Shown in pieces: positions 2,512 through 53,802 of a stretch of 61,704 nucleotides of DNA. Both the position numbers and the translations under genes were made by a program. This DNA is from a virus. The DNA is taken from positions 1-61,704 of IMG/VR virus record IMGVR_UViG_3300028840_000575, one strand, 5' to 3'. Position 1 is the stretch's first letter. Each line of letters opens with the position of its first letter. The notes under the pieces were generated by a model that saw nothing but the letters and a program-made list of their open reading frames with translations, was not told the DNA's origin and searched no databases.

Positions 2512-2991
2512 ATGAAAACAGCTTTTGAAATGGTGCAAGAGTTCCATGAAAAATATGGGTATCCTGTGAATGTTTGTCCTAATCCCACGGATGAATTAAA
2601 ATTCACTTACAAAATACTTGGAGATATGTTGATAGGTATAGCCAAAACGATTGAGGAAAATGCTATACATTATCAAAACCAAGGCGATCCTACTCTGTAC
2701 AGACTGCATTTAAATATGGAAGAACTTGGTGAATTATGTATTGCTTTCAGTGAAGGCGATGATGTTAAGATCTTTGATGCAGAAGTAGATCTAGCTTATG
2801 TTGTTACTGGTTTAGCAGTTACTTTTGGATTACCTCTTCCAGAAGGATTCGCAGAAGTTCATCGTAGTAATATGACGAAAGCTCATCCATCAGAAGGTGG
2901 CGGAGCAAGAATGAGAAGGAAAGGATCTGATTATAGTCCTCCAGAATTAGAACAGTTGCTATTTAGGAGTAGAAACAATGAGACCGTATGA
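2512..2991 (+). CDS. MazG/PRA-PH-like nucleotide pyrophosphohydrolase
   Basis: The 159-residue helical protein has an EELGEL motif (about 71-76), acidic residues in FDAEVDLAYVVTG (about 87-99) and a later EVHRSNMTK segment. This pattern is typical of the all-alpha NTP pyrophosphohydrolase superfamily (MazG, dUTPase, phosphoribosyl-ATP pyrophosphohydrolase-like). Such enzymes convert an NTP or dNTP to NMP plus PPi. In a phage making altered pyrimidine nucleotides it could remove unwanted dNTPs, but the substrate is not visible from sequence. A good ribosome binding site (gagagg) precedes the ATG. Its end overlaps the next gene by 14 bases, so they are probably co-translated. Confidence 0.72.
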   Translation: MKTAFEMVQEFHEKYGYPVNVCPNPTDELKFTYKILGDMLIGIAKTIEENAIHYQNQGDPTLYRLHLNMEELGELCIAFSEGDDVKIFDAEVDLAYVVTGLAVTFGLPLPEGFAEVHRSNMTKAHPSEGGGARMRRKGSDYSPPELEQLLFRSRNNETV

Positions 2992-4018
2992 TAACATTGA
3001 CACTATGTTCTTAGATGCTTGCACTTGTATAAATATTGCAGGTAGAGAAACTCCATCACGAGATGGATTCAGCAAAGAAATACTTGGATATTGTGGTAGA
3101 TTACTAAATCCACGTGCTAATTTTCTTGTGAATCCTACAAGAAAATTAAGTCCTCCATATGCTGCTGCTGAATTCTTATGGTATCTTAGTGGAACAGATC
3201 AAATTGAGATGATCCAAAAATATGCTCCTCAGTATAAAAGATTTACTGAAGATGGTAAAACTGCATGGGGATCCTATGGTCATAGATGGCTTCGTGATCC
3301 TTCGTTTACAAAAGAATGTTTAAAATGTTCTGAGGATTTTAATTTTGATGTAGATGAATTTATAAAAGAGGATAGACTCAAAGCTCCTATCAGTCAATTA
3401 CAGGCTATTGCATGGTTATTGAAAAGAAAACCAGAAAGTCGTCAAGCGGTTATGACGATGTGGAATGCTGGTGATCTTGTTCATGCTATACTTGGAGATA
3501 AAAATGATCTACCCTGTACTACCAGTTTGAATTTTATTATTCGAGAAAATAGATTATATTTAACTGCGACTATGAGATCCAATGATATATGGCTTGGATT
3601 TCCTTATGATGTTTGGTGCTTTACTAATCTGCAAATGTTACTTGCTTCAGTTTTAGATTTAGAATTAGGCTGGTATCAGCATCAAGCAATGTCACTGCAT
3701 GTTTATGATCGTAATATTGAGAGGATGAAGAAGGTGTGTTTTGAAGAAGCACCTAAAGATTATCCTGTATTCTCGTATCATACAGGATTAAATCGTAGTG
3801 CAAGATTATCTGATACAATACGTAATCTAATCCTCAAAGAAAATGAAATGTCTTCTAATGAGAGATATGATTCGCATCGTGTTTCTGAGGATACTGTTAT
3901 ATCCACATTGTTAGGACAATGCTATACGATGTGTGGACTTAAATGGGATTATGAAAATGCCATAAACCATATTATGAATTCAGATTTGAAACACTATTGT
4001 GAAAATCTAAGGAGTTAG
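2978..4018 (+). CDS. Thymidylate-synthase-family pyrimidine C5-(hydroxy)methyltransferase, probably dCMP-specific
   Basis: The 346-residue protein has the TS fold signatures: catalytic Cys180 in LPCTT, the phosphate-binding Arg in MRSND, LGFPYDV, and the ribose-binding His241/Tyr243 in SLHVY. The residue that is Asn in thymidylate synthase (Asn177 in E. coli) is Asp211 here. T4 dCMP hydroxymethylase has Asp at this place, and the Asn-to-Asp change in TS is known to shift specificity from dUMP to dCMP. I therefore infer dCMP methylation or hydroxymethylation rather than ordinary dTMP synthesis. A dNMP kinase and a deaminase-like gene follow directly, forming a modified-nucleotide supply block. 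Use on dUMP cannot be excluded. Confidence 0.8.
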   Translation: MRPYDNIDTMFLDACTCINIAGRETPSRDGFSKEILGYCGRLLNPRANFLVNPTRKLSPPYAAAEFLWYLSGTDQIEMIQKYAPQYKRFTEDGKTAWGSYGHRWLRDPSFTKECLKCSEDFNFDVDEFIKEDRLKAPISQLQAIAWLLKRKPESRQAVMTMWNAGDLVHAILGDKNDLPCTTSLNFIIRENRLYLTATMRSNDIWLGFPYDVWCFTNLQMLLASVLDLELGWYQHQAMSLHVYDRNIERMKKVCFEEAPKDYPVFSYHTGLNRSARLSDTIRNLILKENEMSSNERYDSHRVSEDTVISTLLGQCYTMCGLKWDYENAINHIMNSDLKHYCENLRS

Positions 4019-4019
4019 T

Positions 4020-4595
4020 ATGTTTATTATAGAAGGTCCAGATTGTGTCGGGAAGACAACTGTCGCTGATAAAGTAGTTGAAATGGCAAATAGCTATGGA
4101 TCTTTCCCTATCTATTATCAGCATATGACTCGACCACCACGACATTTTGATTTCTGTTTTCATTACTTAGATATGATGTCTAAGTATGCGGTCATGGATC
4201 GTTTTCATCTTGGTGCTTTGGCTTATCATCCAGCAGATACTTTACCTGCATATCAAAGAAAATTTGTAGAGAGTCAGCTATATCAAAAAGGCTCTATCAT
4301 TGTGATCATGTATGCAAGTAATCCACTACGATACAGAGAGAAATTAGAAGCTCATGCATCACAACGTAAAGAGATGTTTGACTTTGATGTTCTTGTTAAT
4401 GCTAATGCGATCTTTACGGAATTAGCATTATCTGGTAATTATGATTATACATGGGATATCACACAGTCTAACTATCCGGATTCATCAATTGAATTCAGAT
4501 ATCCAGATAAGGAAGTTTTAAAAACTTGGATAGAAACGTGGTTTAAGAGTTTACATATATTGGAGATGTGGAAACATGGCGGACGGATTGACTAG
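4020..4595 (+). CDS. P-loop deoxynucleoside monophosphate kinase
   Basis: The N-terminus carries a Walker A loop, EGPDCVGKTT (residues 5-14), like thymidylate and phage dNMP kinases. An acidic/aromatic VMDRF segment (about 58-62) matches the DR(Y/F) substrate motif of that family. The 191-residue length is normal. It starts one base after the TS-family gene stop behind an aaggag site and overlaps the deaminase-like gene by 20 bases. The expected job is phosphorylation of the unusual dNMP made by the upstream enzyme so that it can become a polymerase substrate. The exact base specificity is not visible. Confidence 0.78.
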   Translation: MFIIEGPDCVGKTTVADKVVEMANSYGSFPIYYQHMTRPPRHFDFCFHYLDMMSKYAVMDRFHLGALAYHPADTLPAYQRKFVESQLYQKGSIIVIMYASNPLRYREKLEAHASQRKEMFDFDVLVNANAIFTELALSGNYDYTWDITQSNYPDSSIEFRYPDKEVLKTWIETWFKSLHILEMWKHGGRID

Positions 4596-5064
4596 AATAA
4601 AAGAAACGTTGTTACAAGAATGTGAAATAGTAACTTCACTTGCAGAATCAAAGACACGATGCAAAAGAAAAGGTGTAGGATGTCAGCTTACAAGATTCCA
4701 TGAAAGAGGAATGTTAGCACTCCCAGCAGTTTATAATGGTCCTGCACATGAAGATTTAAAATGTACAGGAGAGATTGGAAATTGTGGTTGTATGCACAGC
4801 GAACCTCAGGCAATTATAGATTGTCTTAAGAGGCCGTACAATAATTACAAATTCATTCTTCTGTGTACTTATTCACCATGCACGAATTGTGCTAATATTA
4901 TAATTAATTCCGGGATTGTTGAAGGTGTTGTTTATGATATTCTTACGGAGCATGACAAACGTGGTGATGAGATTCTAAGAAAATTTATGCCTGTGGTAAC
5001 TATAGAAGATATTAGAAATGGACATGTAGATGCGATACTTAGCTCCTGGATCAATTCTTATTGA
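4576..5064 (+). CDS. dCMP-deaminase-like zinc enzyme
   Basis: The protein shows the cytidine/deoxycytidylate deaminase signature: zinc ligand His74 and catalytic Glu76 in MHSEP, with Cys102 and Cys105 in PCTNC. dCMP deaminases convert dCMP to dUMP. With an enzyme that looks dCMP-specific just upstream, it could balance the dCMP and dUMP pools or act on a modified nucleotide. Extra cysteines at about 35-70 (CKRKGVGC, CTGEIGNCGC) are conspicuous and might bind a second zinc, as in T4-type enzymes. It overlaps its neighbours on both sides. Confidence 0.75.
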   Translation: MADGLTRIKETLLQECEIVTSLAESKTRCKRKGVGCQLTRFHERGMLALPAVYNGPAHEDLKCTGEIGNCGCMHSEPQAIIDCLKRPYNNYKFILLCTYSPCTNCANIIINSGIVEGVVYDILTEHDKRGDEILRKFMPVVTIEDIRNGHVDAILSSWINSY

Positions 5065-12622: not shown

Positions 12623-13054
12623 ATGCAAACATTTTTACCATATGAAGATTTTCAAAAGTCTGCAAGTGTCTTAGATTATCGTAGACTTGGGAAACAAAGA
12701 GTTGAAGTTAAACAAATACTCTTAGCTAATTTCCAAGGACCAATTAAAGGAGATAGAAAGACTCCGTGGTACAATCATCCAGCTTGCAGAATGTGGAGAG
12801 GATATGAAGGAGCTCTAATAGCTTATGGAATTGCGATATGTGAGGAATGGTCTAATCGTGGATATGTTGACAATATTTATTCAGAACTATATGAAATGAC
12901 TAATAGAAAATTAAATTATGACGGTCCTCCATGGCTTGGCAGAAAAGATTTTCATGATTCACATAAAAGTAATTTACTTTATAAACAATATTCACATTAT
13001 AAACAATTTAATTGGAATGTTCCATTGAATTTACCTTATGTCTGGCCAGTGTAA
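12623..13054 (+). CDS. Pyrimidine-dimer DNA glycosylase-like (MSMEG_6728-type) protein
   Basis: From ATG 12623 the protein begins MQTFLPYEDFQKSASVLD and has DYRRLGKQRVE, HPACRMWRG and a conserved WLGR segment. This is the recognisable pattern of the family annotated as pyrimidine-dimer DNA glycosylase or MSMEG_6728. Known members related to T4 endonuclease V excise UV dimers. In this replication and modification neighbourhood it may act in base excision. The family match is good; the enzymatic activity is not proven. The ATG has a weak ribosome site, so coupling to the preceding stop is likely. Confidence 0.72.
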   Translation: MQTFLPYEDFQKSASVLDYRRLGKQRVEVKQILLANFQGPIKGDRKTPWYNHPACRMWRGYEGALIAYGIAICEEWSNRGYVDNIYSELYEMTNRKLNYDGPPWLGRKDFHDSHKSNLLYKQYSHYKQFNWNVPLNLPYVWPV

Positions 13055-13064
13055 AGGATGAATT

Positions 13065-13940
13065 ATGGCTAAACAACATTTTGAACCAGGATCTTCTACC
13101 GTTGAAGGATTTTTTAATTTTATGCGTGAACGGCATAGAATCTATCTTAAAAGATTCACAATGGATCAACCAAAACCATGGACCGATGATCCCATTTTCC
13201 AACAATGGAAATTTACAAATGTGTTTCGGCAATTGGATCATGGGACTAGAGTCCTTCACATGGCTTTAAGGCATGAAAGAGATTTTACAAAGATAGTTTG
13301 GAACGTTTGGTGGTATCGCCTTTTCAATTGGCATGAGCACATGACCGATTTTGGTGTATTAGAGCATTCTACAAAAGACTACAGCAAGCTGATCAATGGT
13401 TTAAAAGCTAAGGCATATAGAGGTGATAAAGTTTTTACCTCAGCCCATATGACAACTGGTGTTTTTGCGGAAGATAAAGTAGATACATATATAAGAGCAG
13501 TGAAACATGCTGCAGATTATGCACCATATATCGCAGATATAGCTCTGTCTACTCAATCTATGGAACGTGTGTTTGAAGAACTTCTTGAATTCTATATGAT
13601 TGGTAAATTTGTGAGTTATGAAATTGTCTGTGATCTTAGGTTCTTTCATGGATTTGAACCAACAGATGCTATGACATGGGCGAACATTGGTCCAGGTGCT
13701 AAACGAGGTCTAAGAAGATTAGGAAAATCTGTTGATTTAGATAATATGATTGCCCTTATGAATCAGTTCGCTGATGAAGAAGCTGAGAATATTGATGGGC
13801 CATTCTATCCTCACATGTTTTGCAGCATGTATCCACCATTTGAGCTTAGAGAAATTGAACATAGTTTATGTGAATTCGATAAATATGAACGTATTCGTTT
13901 AGGACAAGGTAGACCAAGACAGAAATACAAAGGTATATAA
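13065..13940 (+). CDS. HMUDK-helical / aGPT-Pplase-like base hypermodification protein
   Basis: The 291-residue all-helical protein has a signature I associate with the 5-hmdU DNA kinase helical domain and alpha-glutamyl/putrescinyl-thymine pyrophosphorylase group: FMRERHRIYLKRF (about 18-30), PKPWTDDPIFQQWKFTNVFR (about 36-55) and LDHGTR. A distal region follows with WANIGPGAKRGLRRLG (helix-hairpin-helix-like). Those proteins, related to the DNA glycosylase fold, act on hydroxymethyl- or pyrophosphorylated pyrimidines inside DNA to attach amino acids or amines. It sits at the head of the methyltransferase, radical SAM and kinase cluster, which supports a DNA-modification role. The chemistry performed here is unknown. 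Confidence 0.75.
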   Translation: MAKQHFEPGSSTVEGFFNFMRERHRIYLKRFTMDQPKPWTDDPIFQQWKFTNVFRQLDHGTRVLHMALRHERDFTKIVWNVWWYRLFNWHEHMTDFGVLEHSTKDYSKLINGLKAKAYRGDKVFTSAHMTTGVFAEDKVDTYIRAVKHAADYAPYIADIALSTQSMERVFEELLEFYMIGKFVSYEIVCDLRFFHGFEPTDAMTWANIGPGAKRGLRRLGKSVDLDNMIALMNQFADEEAENIDGPFYPHMFCSMYPPFELREIEHSLCEFDKYERIRLGQGRPRQKYKGI

Positions 13941-13941
13941 T

Positions 13942-14823
13942 ATGCTATTCGTTGATACATCAATGGTGATCCATCGTGCATTGCACAAATTAGATTTCTT
14001 AAAGAATTCTAAAGGAGTGCATACCGGAATGGAATTTGGGACTTTCAAAATTCTTGAGAGTTTAGAAAAGAAATTCCCAAATGAAATAATAATTCTATGC
14101 TTTGATAAGGGTATTTCTAAACGCAAGAAGATTGATCCTAATTACAAAGCTAATAGATCTAAGAGATCTGATGAATTTATAGAGCGTTCAGAAAGACTGC
14201 AAGAAGTTCTCTCTGTCTTGTATAGAACAGCTTATGCTTACGGTGAAGAGGCAGATGAACTCATATATAGCTTAGCAAATCAATATACAGGCCCTCATTA
14301 TATTTATAGCAATGATGATGATTTGTTACAAGCTGTCAATGATGAATATGAGATACAGGTAGTAAAGTCATTCCAATCTAAACTATATTATTGGGATGAA
14401 GCTAAAATAAGGGAAAAGTATTATGTTGGCCCTGCATTGTTACCAATGTTTAGAGCATTCATTGGTGATAGCAGTGATAATATAAAAGGTATCCCAAGAA
14501 TCAACAGAAAACTACTTGCAGAAGCTTTGACTCATGCACTAGATAAGTGGAGCGGTGAAAGCATATTTGATTTCTTAGAAATATTTATGACTGAAAATCT
14601 ATTCAGTGATAATATGAAATTAAAAGTCAGACACTTTGTAGAAGATGGTAATTTTCTGACTAACTATAGACTAATAAAATTGATGTCTATCCCTACAACT
14701 GTGAATAAGCCAGAAGGCGAATTACAAATAGTTGAAAATTTTCTGAAGGAGAAGGAAATTTATAGTCTAGGTATTTGTGAAAAATTAGGTATGAAGAATA
14801 TACAGGATGGAGATGAATTCTAA
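13942..14823 (+). CDS. 5'-3' exonuclease / flap endonuclease
   Basis: The 293-residue protein has the metal-binding acidic residues of the PIN/FEN superfamily: LFVDTSM (Asp5), ILCFDKG, EEADELI (about 111-117), SNDDDLLQ (about 129-136) and AFIGDSSDNIKGIP. The last motif is the helix-hairpin-helix entry typical of T5- and Pol I-type nucleases. It would remove RNA primers and flaps, complementing the polymerase that lacks this domain. It overlaps the following methyltransferase by one base. Confidence 0.9.
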   Translation: MLFVDTSMVIHRALHKLDFLKNSKGVHTGMEFGTFKILESLEKKFPNEIIILCFDKGISKRKKIDPNYKANRSKRSDEFIERSERLQEVLSVLYRTAYAYGEEADELIYSLANQYTGPHYIYSNDDDLLQAVNDEYEIQVVKSFQSKLYYWDEAKIREKYYVGPALLPMFRAFIGDSSDNIKGIPRINRKLLAEALTHALDKWSGESIFDFLEIFMTENLFSDNMKLKVRHFVEDGNFLTNYRLIKLMSIPTTVNKPEGELQIVENFLKEKEIYSLGICEKLGMKNIQDGDEF

Positions 14824-15395
14824 TGGAAGTATCAAAAGATTTTGGACCATTGCAGCAACATGCAAATAGATCTAATCACTGTAGCACATCTTTACAATTT
14901 ATATTAAATAAATTTAAAGTTATCAAATCCTTTATTGATATCGGTTGCGGTCTTGGCGAACAAGTCCGTATTGCTAAGGAACTCGGTCTTATTGCATATG
15001 GTATCGATGGTGATCCTTCATTAAAGATATATGATGATGAAATATTTATCCAGCATGATTTTACAACTGAGCCGTTTTTATCAGGTGACTACATCTATGA
15101 TCTTGGATGGACTGTTGAATTTGTTGAGCATGTCGAAGAAAAATATATAGATAATTATATGCCCCAATTAAGTTATTGCAATAGAGTCCTTATGACTTAT
15201 GCACCTCCAGGACAGAATGGAAGGCATCATGTCAATTGTCAACCACAAAGTTATTGGATCAATATATTTGATAATTGGGGATTCGAACTTGATATCGAAA
15301 CGAGCTATGAAGTTAGAATGGCTTCCATTAATAAATGGATTAGAAATAAAGCACTATTCTTCACAAATCGGAGACTTAAAGCATTATGCGAATAG
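14823..15395 (+). CDS. Class I SAM-dependent methyltransferase
   Basis: The 190-residue protein has a Rossmann motif I FIDIGCGLGEQ (about 38-48), an acidic end of strand 2 (IDGDPS), and a motif IV region VEFVEHVEE followed by LMTYAPPGQNGRHH. The lack of a DPPY/NPPY or PC motif argues against a direct N6-adenine or C5-cytosine DNA methylase. It is more like small-molecule or sugar methyltransferases. Given its position between an HMUDK-helical protein and radical SAM genes, methylation of a base substituent is a reasonable inference. Confidence 0.78.
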   Translation: MEVSKDFGPLQQHANRSNHCSTSLQFILNKFKVIKSFIDIGCGLGEQVRIAKELGLIAYGIDGDPSLKIYDDEIFIQHDFTTEPFLSGDYIYDLGWTVEFVEHVEEKYIDNYMPQLSYCNRVLMTYAPPGQNGRHHVNCQPQSYWINIFDNWGFELDIETSYEVRMASINKWIRNKALFFTNRRLKALCE

Positions 15396-16675
15396 GACTT
15401 ATCTATCTACCACATCCTTATCTTAATCAACCTGATGCACAAGCACCGATTGGACTCCTCTATATTGCAGCTTATATAAGAGAATCATTACCTAATTATG
15501 ATGTGAAGATATTTAATCTTTCTTCTTTCGGTACATTTTCTGGTGCTATAGATTCTTTACCTGAATGTGACCTATATGGAATCACAGTCACAAGTCTAGA
15601 ATTACTGCAAGCAAATAGATTTGCAAAACAATTGAAGGAAACTTATCCTAAGTGCAAAATAATTCTAGGTGGACCAGGAACACTGACTGAAGGATATGTT
15701 GATTGGTATTATATAGATTCCATTTGTAAAGGTGAAGTAGAAAATGGGCTCGTTAAGATACTTTCTGATTTTGAAAATAATAAATATCAAGATATCTATG
15801 AATTTGAATCTCCTCAAAATTTAGATATTCTGCCTTTTCCTGCAAGGGATATGCTTGGATCTAATCAAGGTGGTAACATATTCGCATTTAATAAGAAGTA
15901 TCACGGAATTAAAAGTACGATTATCCTATCGAGTAGAGGATGTCCATTTAAATGTCCATTCTGTAGCTCTATGTTCGTGTCTGGAAAATTAAGATATCGT
16001 TCACCTGAAAGTGTATACGAAGAGATCAAAGAAGTAAAAGAAAGATATGGGATACATCAGTTTAGATTTTCAGATGATATGTTCACTGCGAATTTAGAAC
16101 GAACATATAAGATCTGTGATTTAATACGTCCATTGAATTTAGCCTGGAGGATATCAACAAGAGTCAAACCATGGAACAAAGAACTGGCAGAGGCTTTATT
16201 CAGTGCAGGCTGCAAGGAAGTATCCTTTGGTGTTGAGAGTTTTGATGACCACGTATTAAAGGTATTAGATAAACGAACAACAGCAAAAGATAACGTGAAT
16301 GCTATTCGTATTGCGAAAGAAGCTGGTATGACCGTACGAATACTGTTTATGATTAAAACTCCTGGACAAACAGAAGATACAGTAGATCTAAATATCTCTT
16401 ATCTTGAGGGTATTAAAGATGATTATGATATCATAGCTTGCACAACTTTTATTCCTATTCCTGGGTGCTCTATTTGGGAGAATCCTAATAGATATGGTGT
16501 TGAAATCATTGATACTAATTTAGATAACTACAATTTCTATTTTTATGGATCAAGTGGTGAAAATAAAATTAAAGATGTTATACGATTGTATAACCGTGAT
16601 CCAGAAAAAGTTAATAAAGAAAGTCAACGTTTCCGTAATTATTTAAAAGAAACTGGAAAACTTAATCGAGGGTGA
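15386..16675 (+). CDS. B12-binding-domain radical SAM enzyme
   Basis: The 429-residue protein has an N-terminal cobalamin-binding-like Rossmann domain (GITVTSLELLQA, then IILGGPGT). A radical SAM core follows with the CxxxCxxC cluster ligands Cys186, Cys190 and Cys193 in RGCPFKCPFC. Strand signatures FSDDMF and VSFGVES come next, with a family-typical C-terminus. Such enzymes carry out methylations, ring contractions or C-C bond formation at unreactive carbons. The usual B12-ligand DxHxxG motif is not obvious, as in many base-off members. In this cluster it may remodel a modified base. Confidence 0.87.
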   Translation: MRIGLIYLPHPYLNQPDAQAPIGLLYIAAYIRESLPNYDVKIFNLSSFGTFSGAIDSLPECDLYGITVTSLELLQANRFAKQLKETYPKCKIILGGPGTLTEGYVDWYYIDSICKGEVENGLVKILSDFENNKYQDIYEFESPQNLDILPFPARDMLGSNQGGNIFAFNKKYHGIKSTIILSSRGCPFKCPFCSSMFVSGKLRYRSPESVYEEIKEVKERYGIHQFRFSDDMFTANLERTYKICDLIRPLNLAWRISTRVKPWNKELAEALFSAGCKEVSFGVESFDDHVLKVLDKRTTAKDNVNAIRIAKEAGMTVRILFMIKTPGQTEDTVDLNISYLEGIKDDYDIIACTTFIPIPGCSIWENPNRYGVEIIDTNLDNYNFYFYGSSGENKIKDVIRLYNRDPEKVNKESQRFRNYLKETGKLNRG

Positions 16676-16679
16676 AGAA

Positions 16680-16880
16680 ATGTCTATAACTAATTTTCAA
16701 GAACTCTATAATGATATCCTTAATCAGATACGGAAAGAAAAAGGATTTGTTCAACTTGCAAAAGAGACTAATGGAGAAAATGATAGAGGCTATATACAGC
16801 ACAAGGCAAAATTGGATACCTTGAATAATATCGCCTTTAAACTCATTAATGAATGTGGTTGCACTGCGGAGGAAAACTAA
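16680..16880 (+). CDS. Small helical protein in the modification cluster
   Basis: The protein is 66 residues, mostly helical, starting four bases after the radical SAM stop behind gaggg and ending at the A that begins the next ATG. It ends INECGCTAEEN. No motif is recognised. Its tight coupling on both sides suggests it is needed with the radical SAM or glycosyltransferase-like gene. Confidence 0.6.
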   Translation: MSITNFQELYNDILNQIRKEKGFVQLAKETNGENDRGYIQHKAKLDTLNNIAFKLINECGCTAEEN

Positions 16881-17827
16881 TGAAAAGTTATATTGTCCAT
16901 CTTACGAAATGTGTAAAAGGATCAACAGTTGCGAGCTCAAGGATCGCTTTGTATTTATCAGATCTTCTTAAACTCCCTTTACTCCATGAACCTGAAGATT
17001 TTATAGACTTAGATAAAGAAGTGGATACAATCTATCTAGTGAACAGCATGTCCGCATTCTCCAAAATCCTAAACGAACTTGCAGATTTGGCACGAGGATG
17101 TAGAAGAGTTGTGTTTATTCAGAACGATTATACGATCTATCCGCCAACACAACTAAGAAGAGTGTTTATTGAGCGAGATGATATAATCGTTGAGCGTTGG
17201 AGTACAGTACCTCAGCTTCCAGAAGAATGGGCAAAGAAAAAGATCTGGGTGAAAATCCCAATGAAGGCAACTCATTATGTGAATTGGAATATGCTGACAT
17301 ATGATCCTCTACCGTTGATTCCTAAAAATAAATGTGCAAGTGATACCAGTTGTCTTTTCTACTATGGGGCATATCGAAAAGATCGAGAACACCTTTTCAA
17401 AAAATACTTCGAGGATGCAATTTATCCTATTGAAATAAGTGCTTCATCAAAAGCATTTAGTAAATTCTTAGATCTAAATTATGAGATCGAAGAAGTCCCT
17501 GTACTCAAGAATCTAATAGGGAATATAGCTCATTATGGAACAACGATCTACTTGGAAGATGCTGAATCTAACGATATCTATTGCTCTCCTGCAAATAGAT
17601 TCTATGAATGTCTCAGTGCGGGTATAGCAATTTTATTTGATAAATCTTCTATTCCAACGATGTCTACTGCAGGATACAATATACGCCCATATGTTGTAGA
17701 CAGTCAAGAAGATGTCAAGAAAATGTTACCTAATTGGTTTAATATCTCTAAAGAGCAAAGCGAATGGAGATATGATTTTAGAAAAATTTTAAACTGTCAA
17801 ATAGAGAAGGCTTATCATCATGTCTGA
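16880..17827 (+). CDS. Glycosyltransferase-like protein (GT-B type), possibly acting on modified DNA
   Basis: Starting from ATG 16880 the protein has 315 residues. The C-terminal half has SPANRFYECLSAGIAILFDK (about 248-267), which resembles the nucleotide-sugar-binding region of GT-B glycosyltransferases (N-R-F-Y-E-x-L-x-x-G). The N-terminal half has alternating strand/helix character with VVFIQNDYTIYPP. T4-type phages use GT-B enzymes to glucosylate hydroxymethylcytosine, and the neighbouring genes make that analogy attractive. Family membership is tentative and a protein or lipid target is not excluded. Confidence 0.6.
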   Translation: MKSYIVHLTKCVKGSTVASSRIALYLSDLLKLPLLHEPEDFIDLDKEVDTIYLVNSMSAFSKILNELADLARGCRRVVFIQNDYTIYPPTQLRRVFIERDDIIVERWSTVPQLPEEWAKKKIWVKIPMKATHYVNWNMLTYDPLPLIPKNKCASDTSCLFYYGAYRKDREHLFKKYFEDAIYPIEISASSKAFSKFLDLNYEIEEVPVLKNLIGNIAHYGTTIYLEDAESNDIYCSPANRFYECLSAGIAILFDKSSIPTMSTAGYNIRPYVVDSQEDVKKMLPNWFNISKEQSEWRYDFRKILNCQIEKAYHHV

Positions 17828-18776
17828 TACTTATTGGCAAGATCCACCATTTTCACTAGGGTTTAATTTAACTCACGGATGTAATTTTCGTTGTCCTTTT
17901 TGTGGGATCAATGCGATAGATGTTTCTAAGATGGAGTACATGGATCTTAGAATTGTTGAGCATACATGTGAAATGATAAAGGAAGATGGGTGGAATTGTA
18001 GGATTGGTCTTGGAACTCATGGAGAACCATCCCTGCATCCAGACCTTTTAAAAGTGATTGATATAATCCGTACGATACTACCTAAACACCATATATCTAT
18101 GATCTCAAATGGTGCTGGTATAATACGTCGCAGCTTGTCCTATATAGATGAAATTATGACTGCTGGTGTTAACGTGCTTATGCTGGATGATTATGGCCAT
18201 AGCGACCTTGTGCGAAGGATTAAGGGCGGTTATACAGGCCATAACCAACTATATTATTACCCTACAGACCAACAAGCCAATCCCCACAAGCGTAGGAAGG
18301 TAACAGAGCACCATATAGTCATAGTTGAGAGCATAGACATAGCGAAGAAAGGCAATCATTCCAGGATCAATAATAGAGCAGGATGTGCATATGAAGGAAT
18401 TCCTAATATTAAAGAAGGCAGGAGATGTGCGAATCCATTTAGAGATTTCACTGTAAGATATAATGGAAACGTTCCTATTTGTTGTGTTGATTTCAGAGGA
18501 GTTATCAAATGCGGAAACGTGCTTGATGTGAACTCACTTGAAGAAATATGGAACGGTGAAGTATTTTCTGCAATAAGAAGATTTATGTATCATGGTATGC
18601 GATCTAAAGTTCATCCTTGCAGAATCTGTGATGCTGTTGGCTATAGATTAGGATTTCTACCTGATAAAAAGGGTTTAATGTATCTTCCTGAACCGAATGA
18701 ATTAGATGTGAAAGCCATTGCTAAAGGAACAGTCAATGGCCCTTGTGTCAAAATTAAAAAACTTCCATGGGAGTAA
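17820..18776 (+). CDS. Radical SAM enzyme with SPASM-like C-terminus
   Basis: The 318-residue protein has CxxxCxxC cluster ligands at Cys21, Cys25 and Cys28 (GCNFRCPFCG), and radical SAM strands IGLGTHGEPSLHP and ISMISNGAG. The C-terminal cysteine set (GRRC, VPICCVDF, HPCRIC) matches SPASM/twitch domains that hold extra Fe-S clusters. SPASM enzymes modify peptides, sugars or small molecules. It overlaps the glycosyltransferase-like gene by 8 bases and precedes the kinase-methyltransferase gene by three bases, so it belongs to the same operon. Confidence 0.87.
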   Translation: MSDTYWQDPPFSLGFNLTHGCNFRCPFCGINAIDVSKMEYMDLRIVEHTCEMIKEDGWNCRIGLGTHGEPSLHPDLLKVIDIIRTILPKHHISMISNGAGIIRRSLSYIDEIMTAGVNVLMLDDYGHSDLVRRIKGGYTGHNQLYYYPTDQQANPHKRRKVTEHHIVIVESIDIAKKGNHSRINNRAGCAYEGIPNIKEGRRCANPFRDFTVRYNGNVPICCVDFRGVIKCGNVLDVNSLEEIWNGEVFSAIRRFMYHGMRSKVHPCRICDAVGYRLGFLPDKKGLMYLPEPNELDVKAIAKGTVNGPCVKIKKLPWE

Positions 18777-18779
18777 GAA

Positions 18780-19916
18780 ATGATTATTAATATTAGAGGA
18801 ACAAATGGCTCGGGTAAGAGTCATATAATTAAATCTTTACTTAATATGTATAAGTATGAGATTATCAATGATAACATCTTATTTATTAAAGACTTAGATT
18901 TGTATGTTGTTGGGAAATATTTAAACAAAGATGGCGAATTCATCCCTACTGGTGGATGTGATCAATTAGATGCAAGAACAGTTTATACTTTTATCTATGA
19001 ATTAAGAAATGAAAATGTAATTTTTGAAGGTGCTGCTGAAAGCACTGTGTTCAATAAATGGAGTACTCTTGCATCTGAAGTTGGATTCCATAATTTTATA
19101 TTTATTTTCTTAGATACTCCTATTGAGAAATGTATTAAGCAAAGAGAAGAGAGAAGAAAAGGGCGAAAATCTAATTTTGATAATTCAACTCTTATAAAAA
19201 ATCATGCCGTCTGTAAAATAGTGAGGCATAAACTTAGACATGATGGACATGCGGTCTACGAACTGGCTTCTAAAGATGTAATTAAGTTTATTCATCAAGT
19301 ATTCAATGAAAATTCTGATGATTACCGTAATTGGTTAGAATTTTTATCAGGCTCAGGTAAAAGAACTGGAACATATAGGATCTATGGTCTGTATTGCTCA
19401 GTGAATTTACCTTTGTTTAATGATATGCCTGCTGTAAGAGACATAGAGAAGCGATACAAAGAATTTGGCATTGACAAAATTGAAGGATCAGTGATTGATT
19501 ATGGATGTAATTGTGGTTCTTTGATCTTTGAATCGTTTAATCATGGAGCTACAAGTGGAACAGGTTATGAATATTCTCCATCAAGAGTGCTATTCTGCAA
19601 CAAAGTAGCGAGACGATATGGATTGAATTGTAAATTCTACCAATATGATTTAAATATTGACCTACCTCATATCACTGCGGATTATGTATTCTGCTGCTCA
19701 GTCGATGAATACATAAACAATGTAGATTTATTCTATAGTCATCTACGTATGAGTACAAAGAAAAAGTTGTTCTTTGAATGCAATATCCAAAGAAGTGTGA
19801 CTGTTGATCTAACAGTGCGAAGACTTATGACTGCAGGTTTTAAGAAAGTCTCATATCTAGGGAATGGTGATAGTGGTGGGATTTCTCGTAAAAGAAAAAT
19901 TTACATCTGTGAATAA
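18780..19916 (+). CDS. Fusion of P-loop (hmdU-DNA-kinase-like) kinase and SAM methyltransferase
   Basis: Residues 1-180 form a P-loop kinase with Walker A GTNGSGKS (7-14), an acidic strand VIFEGAAES and a lid region IKQREERRKGRK. This is the small kinase type linked in phages to phosphorylation of 5-hydroxymethylpyrimidine in DNA. Residues about 190-378 form a class I methyltransferase (motif I VIDYGCNCGS about 238; GTGYEYSP; VFCCSVDEYI). The gene ends the modification cluster. I infer two sequential activities on the same modified base; kinase specificity is by analogy only. A non-DNA substrate is possible. Confidence 0.75.
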   Translation: MIINIRGTNGSGKSHIIKSLLNMYKYEIINDNILFIKDLDLYVVGKYLNKDGEFIPTGGCDQLDARTVYTFIYELRNENVIFEGAAESTVFNKWSTLASEVGFHNFIFIFLDTPIEKCIKQREERRKGRKSNFDNSTLIKNHAVCKIVRHKLRHDGHAVYELASKDVIKFIHQVFNENSDDYRNWLEFLSGSGKRTGTYRIYGLYCSVNLPLFNDMPAVRDIEKRYKEFGIDKIEGSVIDYGCNCGSLIFESFNHGATSGTGYEYSPSRVLFCNKVARRYGLNCKFYQYDLNIDLPHITADYVFCCSVDEYINNVDLFYSHLRMSTKKKLFFECNIQRSVTVDLTVRRLMTAGFKKVSYLGNGDSGGISRKRKIYICE

Positions 19917-38649: not shown

Positions 38650-39424
38650 TGGATGTGATAAATTGGATTGTTTGGCTCAGTACAAATTGAATGATAATTT
38701 AGGAAATACTCTTGTCGTAGATAGTCAAGGATTTTCTAATGGGACTGCAACAGATAACACATCTGATTTGCATGTAGATGGAGTATTGAATGGAGCATTC
38801 CATTTCGATGGATCACAAGGTATAAATTGTAACAGCTATTTCCATGAAGCATTTAATGATTCATGCTCTATAAGTCTATGGATTAAACCGGATGATGGAT
38901 TACCTGCTTCATCAAATGGAATATTTGGTGGAGGGGCATTGACAGAATATATTGCTCTAACTTTGTATAATAATGGTGGTACAAGTAGATTAGCTTTTGG
39001 ATATAGATCACAAGGAAATTCTGTTGCATTCAATGCTGATGGACTATTTACAGATGGCCAACAAGATTGGAAACATATAATAATTACATTGGAACAAGTG
39101 ACAGATACACAGGTCACGGCTAAATTATATGCTGATAATGTTCTTCATACGTCTGTTGGTCCTGTGACCTGTGTTATGTCAGACTATAATCAGACCTCTA
39201 GAAAGTTTGCTATTGGAGCCAATCAAATATTCCTTGCTACTTATTTCAAAGGATCTATTGATAACTTTATGATTTTCAATGGTATACTTACAGAATATGA
39301 AAGAGAATGGTTATACAATGATGGATTGGGGACAGAAGTTATATTAACTCCTGGCCACAATACTCTTGTTCTTAATCCTTATTTTGATGAAGAAGATGAA
39401 AATTTTAAATTGATTGGATTTTAA
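38612..39424 (+). CDS. LamG / concanavalin-A-like lectin domain protein
   Basis: From ATG 38612 (spacing from ggagg is good) the product is about 270 residues. The first 16 residues are hydrophobic (MRWLILVLYLFCNGC) and resemble a lipoprotein signal, but the segment overlaps the preceding gene and a later start cannot be excluded. The body is a LamG-like jellyroll: AQYKLNDNLGN, GVLNGAFHFDGSQG, SISLWIKPDDG, WKHIIITLEQ and GSIDNFMIFNGILTE. It should bind carbohydrate and may decorate the virion. It is followed at once by a glycosyltransferase gene. Confidence 0.72.
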   Translation: MRWLILVLYLFCNGCDKLDCLAQYKLNDNLGNTLVVDSQGFSNGTATDNTSDLHVDGVLNGAFHFDGSQGINCNSYFHEAFNDSCSISLWIKPDDGLPASSNGIFGGGALTEYIALTLYNNGGTSRLAFGYRSQGNSVAFNADGLFTDGQQDWKHIIITLEQVTDTQVTAKLYADNVLHTSVGPVTCVMSDYNQTSRKFAIGANQIFLATYFKGSIDNFMIFNGILTEYEREWLYNDGLGTEVILTPGHNTLVLNPYFDEEDENFKLIGF

Positions 39425-40197
39425 TGCTAGTCTTAATTGCAAGATATTGGAATGAAATTGAATGGATCAATACTTCCCTGGAATATATATTCCAATGGAA
39501 TCCAGACAAGGTTATTATATCTGAAGGTAATTGGTCTTCGCATCCTGCGTTTAAAGGCAGAGAACATTCCACAGATGGTACAAGAGAAATTCTACAACAA
39601 TTTGCGAAAGCTAATAAAGATAGAGTACAACTTATAAATGGCGAAAGGGTATCAAAAGATTATAGAACTAATCAGGCTGCAACCTGCAGGAAAGCTCTAG
39701 AATTATCTGGTGCTAAGCCTGGAGATTGGTTTATAACGATTGATTGTGATAGTTTTATAAGTCAAGAATCAATAGACACCATAAAGATACTTATGAAAAT
39801 ATCCGGTGCATATTATTTTCCATATTTAATAAACCATTTTATGTGGGATTTAGAAACATGCGTAACATTAAGAGATATTCATGGCAACTTGCTTCCTCGT
39901 AAAATACATTCGGATGGCGATTTTAAAAATGCTAATCATTATGGTATAGGAAAAAATTACTACACTGGAAATCCAGAAATACACAGTTTAACCTTGGATG
40001 ATTATAATATTCAAGGATATCATTATTCCGGAATTAAAAATAAAGATCGCATTGAAGAACGTTATCTTCTAGGTGATAAACTGAAATCTAGACCAGAAAA
40101 AAGAGGCTACGATAAGAAGCGAAAGCCATTCACAGGTCAACATCCTGCGATTGTTCAGGATAAATTATTTGGAGACAAATCCCATGTTGCATCTTAA
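39424..40197 (+). CDS. GT-A/GT2-type glycosyltransferase-like protein
   Basis: The 257-residue protein begins MLVLIARYWNEIEWINTSLE and has an early acidic/NDP-sugar region (STDGTREIL), then the DxD-like metal site TIDCDSF (about 107-113), all on a GT2-like Rossmann pattern. It sits between a lectin-like gene and the prohead protease, both with structural roles. It overlaps the protease by 14 bases. I infer a glycosyltransferase acting on a virion or host-surface target. The exact sugar is unknown. Confidence 0.68.
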   Translation: MLVLIARYWNEIEWINTSLEYIFQWNPDKVIISEGNWSSHPAFKGREHSTDGTREILQQFAKANKDRVQLINGERVSKDYRTNQAATCRKALELSGAKPGDWFITIDCDSFISQESIDTIKILMKISGAYYFPYLINHFMWDLETCVTLRDIHGNLLPRKIHSDGDFKNANHYGIGKNYYTGNPEIHSLTLDDYNIQGYHYSGIKNKDRIEERYLLGDKLKSRPEKRGYDKKRKPFTGQHPAIVQDKLFGDKSHVAS

Positions 40198-52010: not shown

Positions 52011-53105
52011 ATGACTTGCAGATTTAGAAAGAATGAAGAATGTGATTTAATTAAAAGAATTAAACCGCAGGATTGTAAAGTGAATGATTTATTTTGTCAG
52101 CATCATTGTTCTGAACATGATGATGTATTAAAAAATCAAATGTTGAAAACTCATTTTGGAGCATCTATTGATCTAGAATCGATGAAGCAAGTGAAAAGAA
52201 TTACTGTTAATGATGGGCAACTTATTGTTCTTGATACGAATGACCAATTAATCAAAAATAAAGAAATCGATAATTCTTGTATATCAGTATTATTACCTTC
52301 ATGCAATGAAGAAGATGATAATCTTAAGAATACAATAAATTCACTTTTAGAAAATGCTGTTCAAGAAGTTCAAATACTGGTAGGAATAGATGGAAGTGAC
52401 GAAGAATCATTAGATCATCCTTCAGTAGTGACAAGAAGATTTAAACAGAGAATAGGTAAAAGAAAAGTATTAAATGAATTAGCTAGTATTTCTTCAGGTG
52501 ATAAATTCTTTATACTTGATTCTCATTGTGCAATAACAAAAGGATGGGATAAAGAGTTAAAGAAATATCATTTAAGGAATTCAATTCTACAAACAACTTT
52601 AGATAGTCTAAGCCCAAGAAAATCAGATGGCACTTTATATTGGAAAGGAAAAGGAAACCGATACGATTTTGTATATCTGAATACAGAATTAAAAGATAAA
52701 TGGTGGCTCGCATATTCAAAACGTCTTCCTAAAAATTGGAAAGTAACTGAGACAATGGGGTTAACGGGATGTGGATTCTTAATTGATAAAGAGTTATTCT
52801 ACCATTTAGGTGGATACAATGAATCCTTTGGAGAACTTCGTGGTGCTGAAGGCCCCGAATGGGCTTGTAAAGTATGGCTCTCTGGTGGACAAGTTTTAAT
52901 GCACAGAAATGTCATCACTGCTCATTTGTTTAAAAAGAAGGAGCCATATACTTACAGTATTAAGAAATTAAGAGATTCGTATTCTAAAGTAAAAGAATGT
53001 TTTTGGAATAGACAAGGACCGCATCAAATCTTCTCTCCAGACTGGCTTGCAGAAAGATTTAATCCAGTCCCTAAATGGGAGGAATACTTTGAAAACAGAA
53101 AATAG
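52011..53105 (+). CDS. Polypeptide-GalNAc-transferase-like GT-A glycosyltransferase
   Basis: The 364-residue protein has a Cys-rich N-terminus (Cys3, 11, 22, 29, 33), then a GT-A core: ISVLLPSCNEEDDNL (91-105), VGIDGSDEE, FILDSHC (167-173; the D-x-H metal site), TGCGFLIDKELFYHLGGYNE (252-271), GAEGPEWACKVW (278-289) and His305 in AHLF. The set and order resemble the catalytic domain of GT27 polypeptide N-acetylgalactosaminyltransferases (DSHC, WGGEN, late His). It is encoded between tail-tip genes that carry mucin-like Thr/Pro tags. O-glycosylation of those tags is my inference. Other GT2 enzymes share parts of this pattern. Confidence 0.72.
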   Translation: MTCRFRKNEECDLIKRIKPQDCKVNDLFCQHHCSEHDDVLKNQMLKTHFGASIDLESMKQVKRITVNDGQLIVLDTNDQLIKNKEIDNSCISVLLPSCNEEDDNLKNTINSLLENAVQEVQILVGIDGSDEESLDHPSVVTRRFKQRIGKRKVLNELASISSGDKFFILDSHCAITKGWDKELKKYHLRNSILQTTLDSLSPRKSDGTLYWKGKGNRYDFVYLNTELKDKWWLAYSKRLPKNWKVTETMGLTGCGFLIDKELFYHLGGYNESFGELRGAEGPEWACKVWLSGGQVLMHRNVITAHLFKKKEPYTYSIKKLRDSYSKVKECFWNRQGPHQIFSPDWLAERFNPVPKWEEYFENRK

Positions 53106-53802
53106 AAAAATTGGCTCCTTAGTGACAACTAAAGTAAGAGAAAAATTTCTTCCTTCACAATTACAAGATCTTTCTCCCCAATTGGATACTCTGTATGTGA
53201 CGCTAAATGGATATTCTAAGATCCCTGATTTTGTAAATGGCTTTTCAAATGTGGAATGTATTTGTGATCCTAAGAATAGAACAAGAGATATTGCTAAATT
53301 GCTAATCTCTAAAGAAGTTGGTTCTTGTTATTTCTTTACTTTTGATGATGATCTTTTATATCCTGAAGATTATGTATCTAAGTATATGGAAAAATTTGAG
53401 CAGTATGGTAAGAGGACTATTCTATGTTTACATGGAACAATATTAAAACCTAATTGGATAGTGTATTATCAGCATAGAAAAGTTTTACACTATTTTGAAC
53501 CAATGGAAAAGGATCGAATATTCGATCTTGCAGGCACAGCAACAACTGCTTTCCATACAGATTCATTAAAAATTAATTTCAATGAAATATGGGATTATGA
53601 AATAGGATCTGATCTTTGGCTTGCGTATTTTGCATATAAGAATGATATTCCTTTACAAGCAATTGCACGAAAAAAGAATTGGGTTGTTTGCAAACCTGGA
53701 ACACAAAGTTGTGGGACTCCTTTATATGTGAAAGTTGCAAAAGATAAACTATGGCAATGGAGAAGAAATAGATTCTTTAGAGGATGGAAAGTAAATGTCT
53801 AA
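53089..53802 (+). CDS. GT-A glycosyltransferase-like protein with a DDD motif
   Basis: The likely start is TTG 53089, 5-6 bases after gggagg and inside the previous gene, giving 237 residues. It has a strand/helix GT-A pattern with the metal site FTFDDDLLYPEDYV (about 82-95), a downstream HGTILKPNW, and IARKKNWVVCKPG. Direct coupling to the GalNAc-transferase-like gene suggests stepwise building of one glycan. The sugar and acceptor are not visible. It overlaps the hub gene by 8 bases. Confidence 0.65.
   Translation: MKTENRKIGSLVTTKVREKFLPSQLQDLSPQLDTLYVTLNGYSKIPDFVNGFSNVECICDPKNRTRDIAKLLISKEVGSCYFFTFDDDLLYPEDYVSKYMEKFEQYGKRTILCLHGTILKPNWIVYYQHRKVLHYFEPMEKDRIFDLAGTATTAFHTDSLKINFNEIWDYEIGSDLWLAYFAYKNDIPLQAIARKKNWVVCKPGTQSCGTPLYVKVAKDKLWQWRRNRFFRGWKVNV

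Follow-up and report, generated by a model that had tools for sequence, protein, structure and literature searches.

An operon of an uncultured phage predicted to decorate DNA bases by glycosylation and radical SAM chemistry

Introduction

Known hydroxymethyl-pyrimidine routes of phages either attach plain sugars to the base or attach amino acids that are then trimmed. The 5-(2-aminoethyl)uridine pathway of Pseudomonas phage M6, the amino acid:DNA transferase (ADDT) route, uses a hydroxymethylase of the thymidylate-synthase fold, a hydroxymethyl-pyrimidine DNA kinase, HMUDK_hel (hel), ADDT, a PLP enzyme and a radical SAM (rSAM) enzyme. T4 has the hydroxymethylase gp42, a deaminase, a dNMP kinase and a dCTPase and incorporates 5-hydroxymethylcytosine (hmC), which is then glucosylated by β-glucosyltransferase (BGT). 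Another glycosyltransferase, TAGT (PF20691), is held likely to add the second glucose in T6-like phages (PMC13390438). Outside DNA modification, BtrN from butirosin biosynthesis is an rSAM enzyme acting as an aminoglycoside alcohol dehydrogenase, and ApyD, PhpK and AprD4 are class B B12 radical SAM enzymes.

Here, we analysed a 61,704-nt stretch of DNA, referred to as the window, from an uncultured phage (IMG/VR record IMGVR_UViG_3300028840_000575, positions 1 to 61,704), which appears to be a complete genome with a terminal direct repeat of ~144 bases. An initial annotation of positions 13065-19916 had proposed a new DNA base hypermodification pathway comprising an HMUDK-helical protein, two methyltransferases, one of them fused to a kinase, two rSAM enzymes, a small helical protein and a GT-B-like protein, and had compared it with phage thymidine hypermodification.

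Results

The genes at 13065-19916 form one tight operon

All seven features that had been named are real and in place, located on the + strand with gaps of -28 to +10 bases, i.e. in one operon, so the observation is confirmed. Three corrections were necessary. A 5'-3' exonuclease (13942-14823, PF02739, E=3e-26) between hel and the first methyltransferase had been missed, the GT-B gene most likely starts at 16880, where its relatives start, in an ATGA overlap with the preceding small ORF, and the hydroxymethylase that would make the substrate lies outside the interval, at 2978-4018. The exonuclease is probably involved in replication rather than modification, as it lies near the RNR gene in related phages.

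The operon starts with hel (13065-13940, PF18723, E=2e-49), an all-helical protein resembling amino acid:DNA transferases and DNA glycosylases. Its AlphaFold2 model (pLDDT 92.8) gave 8z2n and 8z2m, the 5-PmdU glycinyltransferase of PaMx11, as top PDB matches (probability 0.99, TM 0.51, E=0.14). Downstream of the exonuclease lies the SAM methyltransferase MT1 (14823-15395), which has only weak Pfam matches (Methyltransf_23/11), but a homologue (34% over 158 residues) directly follows the same B12-rSAM in L281, one of the viral loci retrieved (loci and contigs are designated L plus number). The B12-binding rSAM enzyme (15386-16675, PF02310, E=4e-7, and PF04055, E=3e-25) is of class B, with the corresponding domain layout and CX3CX2C core, but scores far below every curated cutoff, including that for AprD4 diol dehydratase (60.5 bits against a cutoff of 500), so that an AprD4-like function is not assignable, and it belongs to its own viral family. 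Relatives 41-56% identical were found in 13 other loci, mostly in glycosyltransferase-rich clusters, with the CX3CX2C motif being invariant. All of these loci but one, L284, lack a detected hydroxymethylase nearby, whereas L284 carries hel, the B12-rSAM, TAGT and a hydroxymethylase. Relatives of MT1 likewise lie in glycosyltransferase-rich clusters. The B12-rSAM and MT1 look recruited from viral glycan clusters. The following 66-residue ORF (16680-16880) has no homologue in any locus searched.

The last gene (18780-19916) encodes a hydroxymethyl-pyrimidine DNA kinase (PF18748, 27.4 bits, cutoff 27) fused at its C-terminus to a methyltransferase, MT2. The kinase is 27-30% identical to the M6 kinase and keeps Walker A and other motifs, and MT2 is a separate gene, 39% identical, next to the same module in the closest sister contig, L017.

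The GT-B protein is related to T4 BGT and the SPASM protein to BtrN

As no Pfam hit exists for the GT-B protein (16880-17827), we generated an AlphaFold model (pLDDT 95.5) and compared it with known structures by Foldseek. The top six PDB hits were all T4 BGT (best E=1.7e-9, TM 0.64-0.72), confirming the GT-B fold. This relationship was corroborated by a profile match to 1bgt (E=3.5e-4) and by an hhalign alignment (E=5e-7), in which the catalytic D100 and the UDP-contacting R191, R195, R269 and E272 of T4 BGT align to conserved residues, although the proteins are only about 13-17% identical. Membership in this GT-B family alone is not diagnostic, as about half of the relatives have no hydroxymethylase or hel in the stretch retrieved.

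The second rSAM enzyme (17820-18776) matches Radical_SAM (PF04055, E=5e-12) and SPASM (PF13186, E=2e-11), as initially annotated. The profile of its family, however, hits BtrN (4m7t) over both domains with E=2e-25, and the CX3CX2C motif as well as the cysteines of a single auxiliary cluster (CX17C...CX2C), of the same kind of spacing as in BtrN, are invariant in an 11-member alignment, classifying it as a BtrN-type rSAM/twitch enzyme. The relatedness to BtrN is at family level, from which the substrate cannot be read.

The hydroxymethylase is predicted to be of the dCMP type

The pyrimidine hydroxymethylase (2978-4018, PF00303, E=8e-28), of the thymidylate-synthase fold, has the CMP hydroxymethylase MilA as best PDB hit (E=1e-26). 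It carries the catalytic Cys and an Asp at the position of D179 in T4 gp42, where dUMP enzymes, such as M6 gp58 and SPO1 gp29, have Asn, and the Asp sequences group with T4 gp42 apart from M6 and SPO1. The gene is flanked by a MazG-like nucleotide pyrophosphohydrolase, possibly a dCTPase/dUTPase (2512-2991, PF01503, E=7e-12), which travels with the Asp-type hydroxymethylase, and by a dNMP kinase, predicted to act on hm-dCMP (4020-4595, weak PF02223), which, among loci with a typed hydroxymethylase, was found only with the Asp type. A dCMP deaminase (4576-5064, PF00383, E=2e-8) with intact HxE and PCxxC motifs follows. All four genes are on the + strand. No TET/JBP dioxygenase was found among the proteins scanned with Pfam, which did not include every small ORF.

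The core of the operon recurs in uncultured viruses

We next asked if the arrangement occurs elsewhere. Scans with the single SPASM and kinase-MT2 sequences found only a fragment of the same virus, and the hel scan two more loci, so that family alignments were needed. A scan made on the SPASM family alone yielded 80 viral loci, of which 76 hold a hydroxymethylase, 72 hel and 78 either of the two within 10 kb, and 68 hold TAGT or GT-B, with TAGT being the alternative glycosyltransferase partner of hel and SPASM in 55. Upon clustering at 70%, 35 of 37 clusters have hydroxymethylase or hel. A kinase is present in only 4 of the 80 loci and ADDT in none, and all 72 hydroxymethylases with a readable residue in these loci are of the Asn type. 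L017 has the order hel-GTB-kinase-SPASM-MT2, with an Asp-type hydroxymethylase in the same contig. Hel, glycosyltransferase, SPASM-rSAM, hydroxymethylase and sometimes the kinase recur together in dozens of other viral contigs, which is far beyond chance and rules out a unique lineage-specific oddity. The core is therefore hydroxymethylase, hel, glycosyltransferase and BtrN-like rSAM, usually without a kinase, indicating that the kinase is not an essential part of the glycosyl branch. A scan of genome contigs gave one hit, in a contig filed as a Patescibacteria MAG that looks viral. In 50,697 deposited phage records only weak, distant relatives of the GT and the rSAM were found, and no deposited phage genome searched has this combination, although we cannot exclude that Lee 2021, Iyer 2013, Wen 2024 or Burke 2021 already mentions this SPASM/GT neighbourhood.

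Finally, we looked for the remaining components of the M6/ViI route. An ADDT profile (PF18724) that finds the transferase, which defines this route, in 24 other loci gave no match in any frame of the window at E<=10, and the PLP enzyme and the M6-type rSAM are absent in the window as well, as is TAGT. Hence, the known amino-acid route as it stands is rejected, even though a hydroxymethylase of the thymidylate-synthase fold, here of the cytosine type, the kinase and hel are shared with M6. Compared with T4, the window has an Asp-type hydroxymethylase and a GT-B enzyme with the BGT fold and catalytic residues, whereas the kinase, hel, rSAM and methylation genes have no counterpart in the T4 route.

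Discussion

Our results partly support the initial interpretation: a DNA hypermodification operon built on a hydroxymethyl-pyrimidine, including glycosylation, methylation and two rSAM enzymes, is supported, but the link to thymidine is not. We propose, with moderate confidence, that the operon hypermodifies the phage's own DNA, most likely on hmC. In this model the hydroxymethylase converts dCMP to hm-dCMP, the dNMP kinase raises it toward the triphosphate, the MazG-like enzyme may remove competing dCTP, and PolA incorporates the modified base. After replication the BGT-like enzyme would transfer a sugar from a nucleotide sugar to the hydroxymethyl group, the BtrN-type enzyme would oxidise a hydroxyl of that sugar to a ketone, and the B12-rSAM enzyme, MT1 and MT2 would alkylate or rearrange the sugar. 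A fraction of sites may instead be phosphorylated by the kinase-MT2 fusion and processed by hel. The product, best read as glycosylated hmC whose sugar is oxidised and methylated, would shield the DNA from host nucleases. Of this scheme, the fold and conserved residues of the GT-B protein, the BtrN-type family membership and the diagnostic Asp are shown by our analysis, whereas all activities, i.e. hydroxymethylation of dCMP rather than dUMP, sugar transfer to hydroxymethylated DNA, dehydrogenation of a sugar hydroxyl and the steps of the B12-rSAM enzyme, the methyltransferases, the kinase and hel, are inferred, those up to incorporation of the base by PolA from families and one diagnostic residue and the dehydrogenation from BtrN. 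We consider DNA modification very likely and glycosylation of the base likely. That the base is cytosine is probable, but rests mainly on one residue and its clade, and the dCMP deaminase could convert hm-dCMP to hm-dUMP. That the rSAM enzymes act on the sugar is at best slightly more likely than not, with the B12-rSAM and methyltransferase step being the weakest. As the phage encodes a B12-dependent type RNR, cobalamin is probably available in the host. Hel is retained in loci without a kinase, leaving its step unexplained by this model.

Other explanations appear less likely. In an M6-like route the kinase would (pyro)phosphorylate hydroxymethyl groups in DNA, hel itself would act as the transferase for an amino acid or other nucleophile, the rSAM enzymes and methyltransferases would remodel the attached group and GT-B would add a sugar last. 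Kinase and hel are indeed relatives of M6 gp54 and gp55, hel resembles a glycinyltransferase in fold, and it occurs in SP10 and phiW-14, which carry amino-acid/polyamine thymines, but the absence of ADDT, PLP enzyme and M6-type rSAM, the scarcity of kinases in the SPASM loci and the glycosyltransferase as conserved partner make this unlikely. We judge equally unlikely that the same sugar chemistry takes place on uracil, with the deaminase turning hm-dCMP into hm-dUMP before incorporation. The deaminase, of one family, accompanies Asp-type hydroxymethylases far more often than Asn-type ones, and the readable hydroxymethylases of the SPASM loci are Asn-type, yet T4 has the equivalent enzyme set and incorporates hmC, and we know of no phage that deaminates hm-dCMP as a route.

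A target other than DNA, such as a peptide, a capsid or tail glycan, or a cofactor, is very unlikely. SPASM and B12 rSAM enzymes often act on peptides, and most B12-rSAM relatives lie in clusters that look like virion-glycan clusters, but the SPASM family is tied to hydroxymethylase or hel in nearly every locus and the GT-B protein is a relative of a DNA glucosyltransferase. A peptide (RiPP) target with the 66-residue ORF as precursor was rejected as main reading since this ORF lacks homologues and the rSAM family tracks the hydroxymethylase.

A more far-reaching possibility, which remains tentative, is a cytosine-based glyco-hypermodification in which a sugar attached to DNA is remodelled on the DNA by both rSAM enzymes, a BtrN-type dehydrogenase and a B12-dependent enzyme, and methylated. 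This would be aminoglycoside-like sugar chemistry performed on a genome, in a kinase/hel setting previously tied to thymine.

Taken together, the evidence points to a third branch of hydroxymethyl-pyrimidine modification, glycosylation followed by rSAM tailoring, which is common in uncultured viruses. It predicts unseen DNA bases, provides a dedicated, BtrN-like enzyme family, and shows that the kinase/hel toolkit named for hydroxymethyl-uracil also travels with cytosine-type hydroxymethylases, even with the full M6-like set in contig L029.

The operon and the genes predicted to supply its substrate

The interval at 13065-19916 holds a co-directional operon with gaps between -28 and +10 bases, and Pfam searches confirmed HMUDK_hel, a B12-binding plus radical SAM protein, a radical SAM plus SPASM protein and a kinase-methyltransferase fusion, so that the gene cluster described in the initial annotation is indeed present. 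A 5'-3' exonuclease at 13942-14823 had not been listed there. Directly upstream of the operon lies a pyrimidine-dimer DNA glycosylase (12623-13054; Pyr_excise, 1e-18). The window appears to be a complete 61.7-kb viral genome, with a terminal direct repeat of about 144 bases.

Outside the interval, at 2512-5064, we identified a MazG-like hydrolase, a thymidylate-synthase-fold protein, a dNMP kinase and a dCMP deaminase. The synthase-fold protein matches the CMP hydroxymethylase MilA better than any thymidylate synthase in the PDB. At the position that decides between cytosine and uracil (D179 in T4 gp42, Asn in thymidylate synthases) it has Asp, like T4 gp42, whereas the hydroxymethylases of M6 and SPO1, both hydroxymethyl-uracil phages, have Asn. 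In a tree built with that column removed the Asp sequences group with T4 gp42, with one or two Asn exceptions at the base, and the window enzyme sits inside this group. This predicts 5-hydroxymethylcytosine; the role of the residue in base choice is established for these enzymes, but that it holds here is inferred.

The GT-B-like protein is related to T4 DNA beta-glucosyltransferase

The GT-B-like protein has no Pfam match. Its family alignment, however, hits T4 DNA beta-glucosyltransferase (BGT) in the PDB by sequence (E 3.5e-4), the two chains matched both being this protein, and a search with the AlphaFold model (pLDDT 95.5) returned T4 BGT as the first six PDB matches (best 1.7e-9; TM up to 0.72). 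In the profile alignment the catalytic Asp100 of T4 BGT and the UDP-contacting R191, R195, R269 and E272 fall on conserved residues. Three further genes resembling family 2 glycosyltransferases, at 39424-40197, 52011-53105 and 53047-53802, lie among tail and capsid genes and are possibly involved in virion glycosylation.

The SPASM enzyme family co-occurs with hydroxymethylase, hel and glycosyltransferases

The viral family profile of the SPASM enzyme hits BtrN, a radical SAM alcohol dehydrogenase of aminoglycoside biosynthesis, over both domains (E 2e-25), and the auxiliary-cluster cysteines with CX17C and CX2C spacing are invariant. Distant relatives (about 25% identity) of this BtrN-like enzyme, some annotated 'BtrN protein', were found in Campylobacter phages CPt10, CP20 and relatives. 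To avoid selection on the expected partners we scanned 2.9 million viral contigs with this family alone. Of the 80 loci kept, 76 have the hydroxymethylase within 10 kb, 72 have hel and 78 at least one of the two, while 55 have a TAGT, 13 a GT-B, 4 the kinase and none ADDT. As two of the listed loci carry both TAGT and GT-B, about 66-68 hold at least one glycosyltransferase; after clustering at 70% identity 30 of 37 do, and 35 of 37 hold hydroxymethylase or hel. For comparison, a hel relative is found in 359 of 50,697 deposited phage genomes. These results tie the enzyme to DNA modification and to glycosylation, not to the amino-acid route.

Hel is nearly constant in the glycosyl branch, the kinase is not. 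The hel model (pLDDT 92.8) resembles the PaMx11 5-PmdU glycinyltransferase (prob 0.99, TM 0.51, but E only 0.14) and, more weakly, DNA glycosylases, and closely resembles the hel domains of SP10 and phiW-14. Its invariant Arg, Asp, Glu, Lys and Cys residues suggest an enzyme, with a role that is unexplained where no kinase is present. The hydroxymethyl-uracil DNA kinase, exemplified by gp054 of phage M6 (NC_007809) and relatives, is annotated as 'terminase small subunit' in many phage records and in PHROG 800.

The closest sister is contig IMGVR_UViG_3300048588_000315 (loci L017/L095 in our set), which has the order hel-GTB-kinase-SPASM-MT2, with an Asp-type hydroxymethylase elsewhere in the contig. 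There the methyltransferase MT2 is its own gene, whereas in the window it is fused to the kinase. In this sister phage a nucleoside 2-deoxyribosyltransferase-like protein follows the module (L017, 7684-8460).

Relatives of the B12 radical SAM enzyme and MT1

Relatives of the B12 radical SAM enzyme (41-56% identity) were found in thirteen other viral loci. Most of them lie among glycosyltransferases near virion genes without any detected hydroxymethylase, but one locus (L284) reads hel-B12rSAM-TAGT-hydroxymethylase, with an Asn-type hydroxymethylase. This viral family (loci L275-L287) sits in glycosyltransferase-rich clusters near structural genes, suggesting virion-glycan tailoring by radical SAM chemistry. 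In locus L281 a relative of the methyltransferase MT1 directly follows the B12 enzyme, while in the window MT1 directly precedes it. We infer from this a glycan-tailoring pair recruited into the DNA operon, which supports action on a sugar but makes the DNA assignment of these two genes weaker than that of hel, GT-B and SPASM.

Implications for DNA hypermodification

DNA-base hypermodification, as proposed in the initial annotation, is strongly supported, whereas its thymidine framing is not, so that its interpretation holds only in part. Gene order, domain matches, the Asp residue, the similarity of the GT-B-like protein to T4 BGT and the co-occurrence counts are observed, while the chosen base, sugar transfer to DNA, the reworking of the sugar and the contribution of the B12 enzyme and MT1 are inferred. 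The best reading is glycosylated 5-hydroxymethylcytosine with the sugar reworked by radical SAM enzymes and methylated. Such a pathway would be a variation on the known hydroxymethyl-pyrimidine systems, new in this tailoring of the sugar, with a product that is as yet unproven.

Other loci carry related gene sets. In locus L014 (5994-8444) a sulfotransferase-like gene (PF13469) sits between the hydroxymethyl-DNA kinase and a weak ADDT relative, pointing to a possible sulfated DNA base. Asp-type hydroxymethylases also occur with hel-kinase-ADDT in locus L024 and with the full hel-kinase-ADDT-PLP-rSAM set of M6 in locus L029 (contig IMGVR_UViG_3300045996_000876, 9995-15795). In the latter phage the Asp (cytosine) type is the only hydroxymethylase detected, which predicts a cytosine analogue of 5-(2-aminoethyl)uridine. 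Both the amino-acid and the sugar branch therefore seem to exist on cytosine as well as on uracil.
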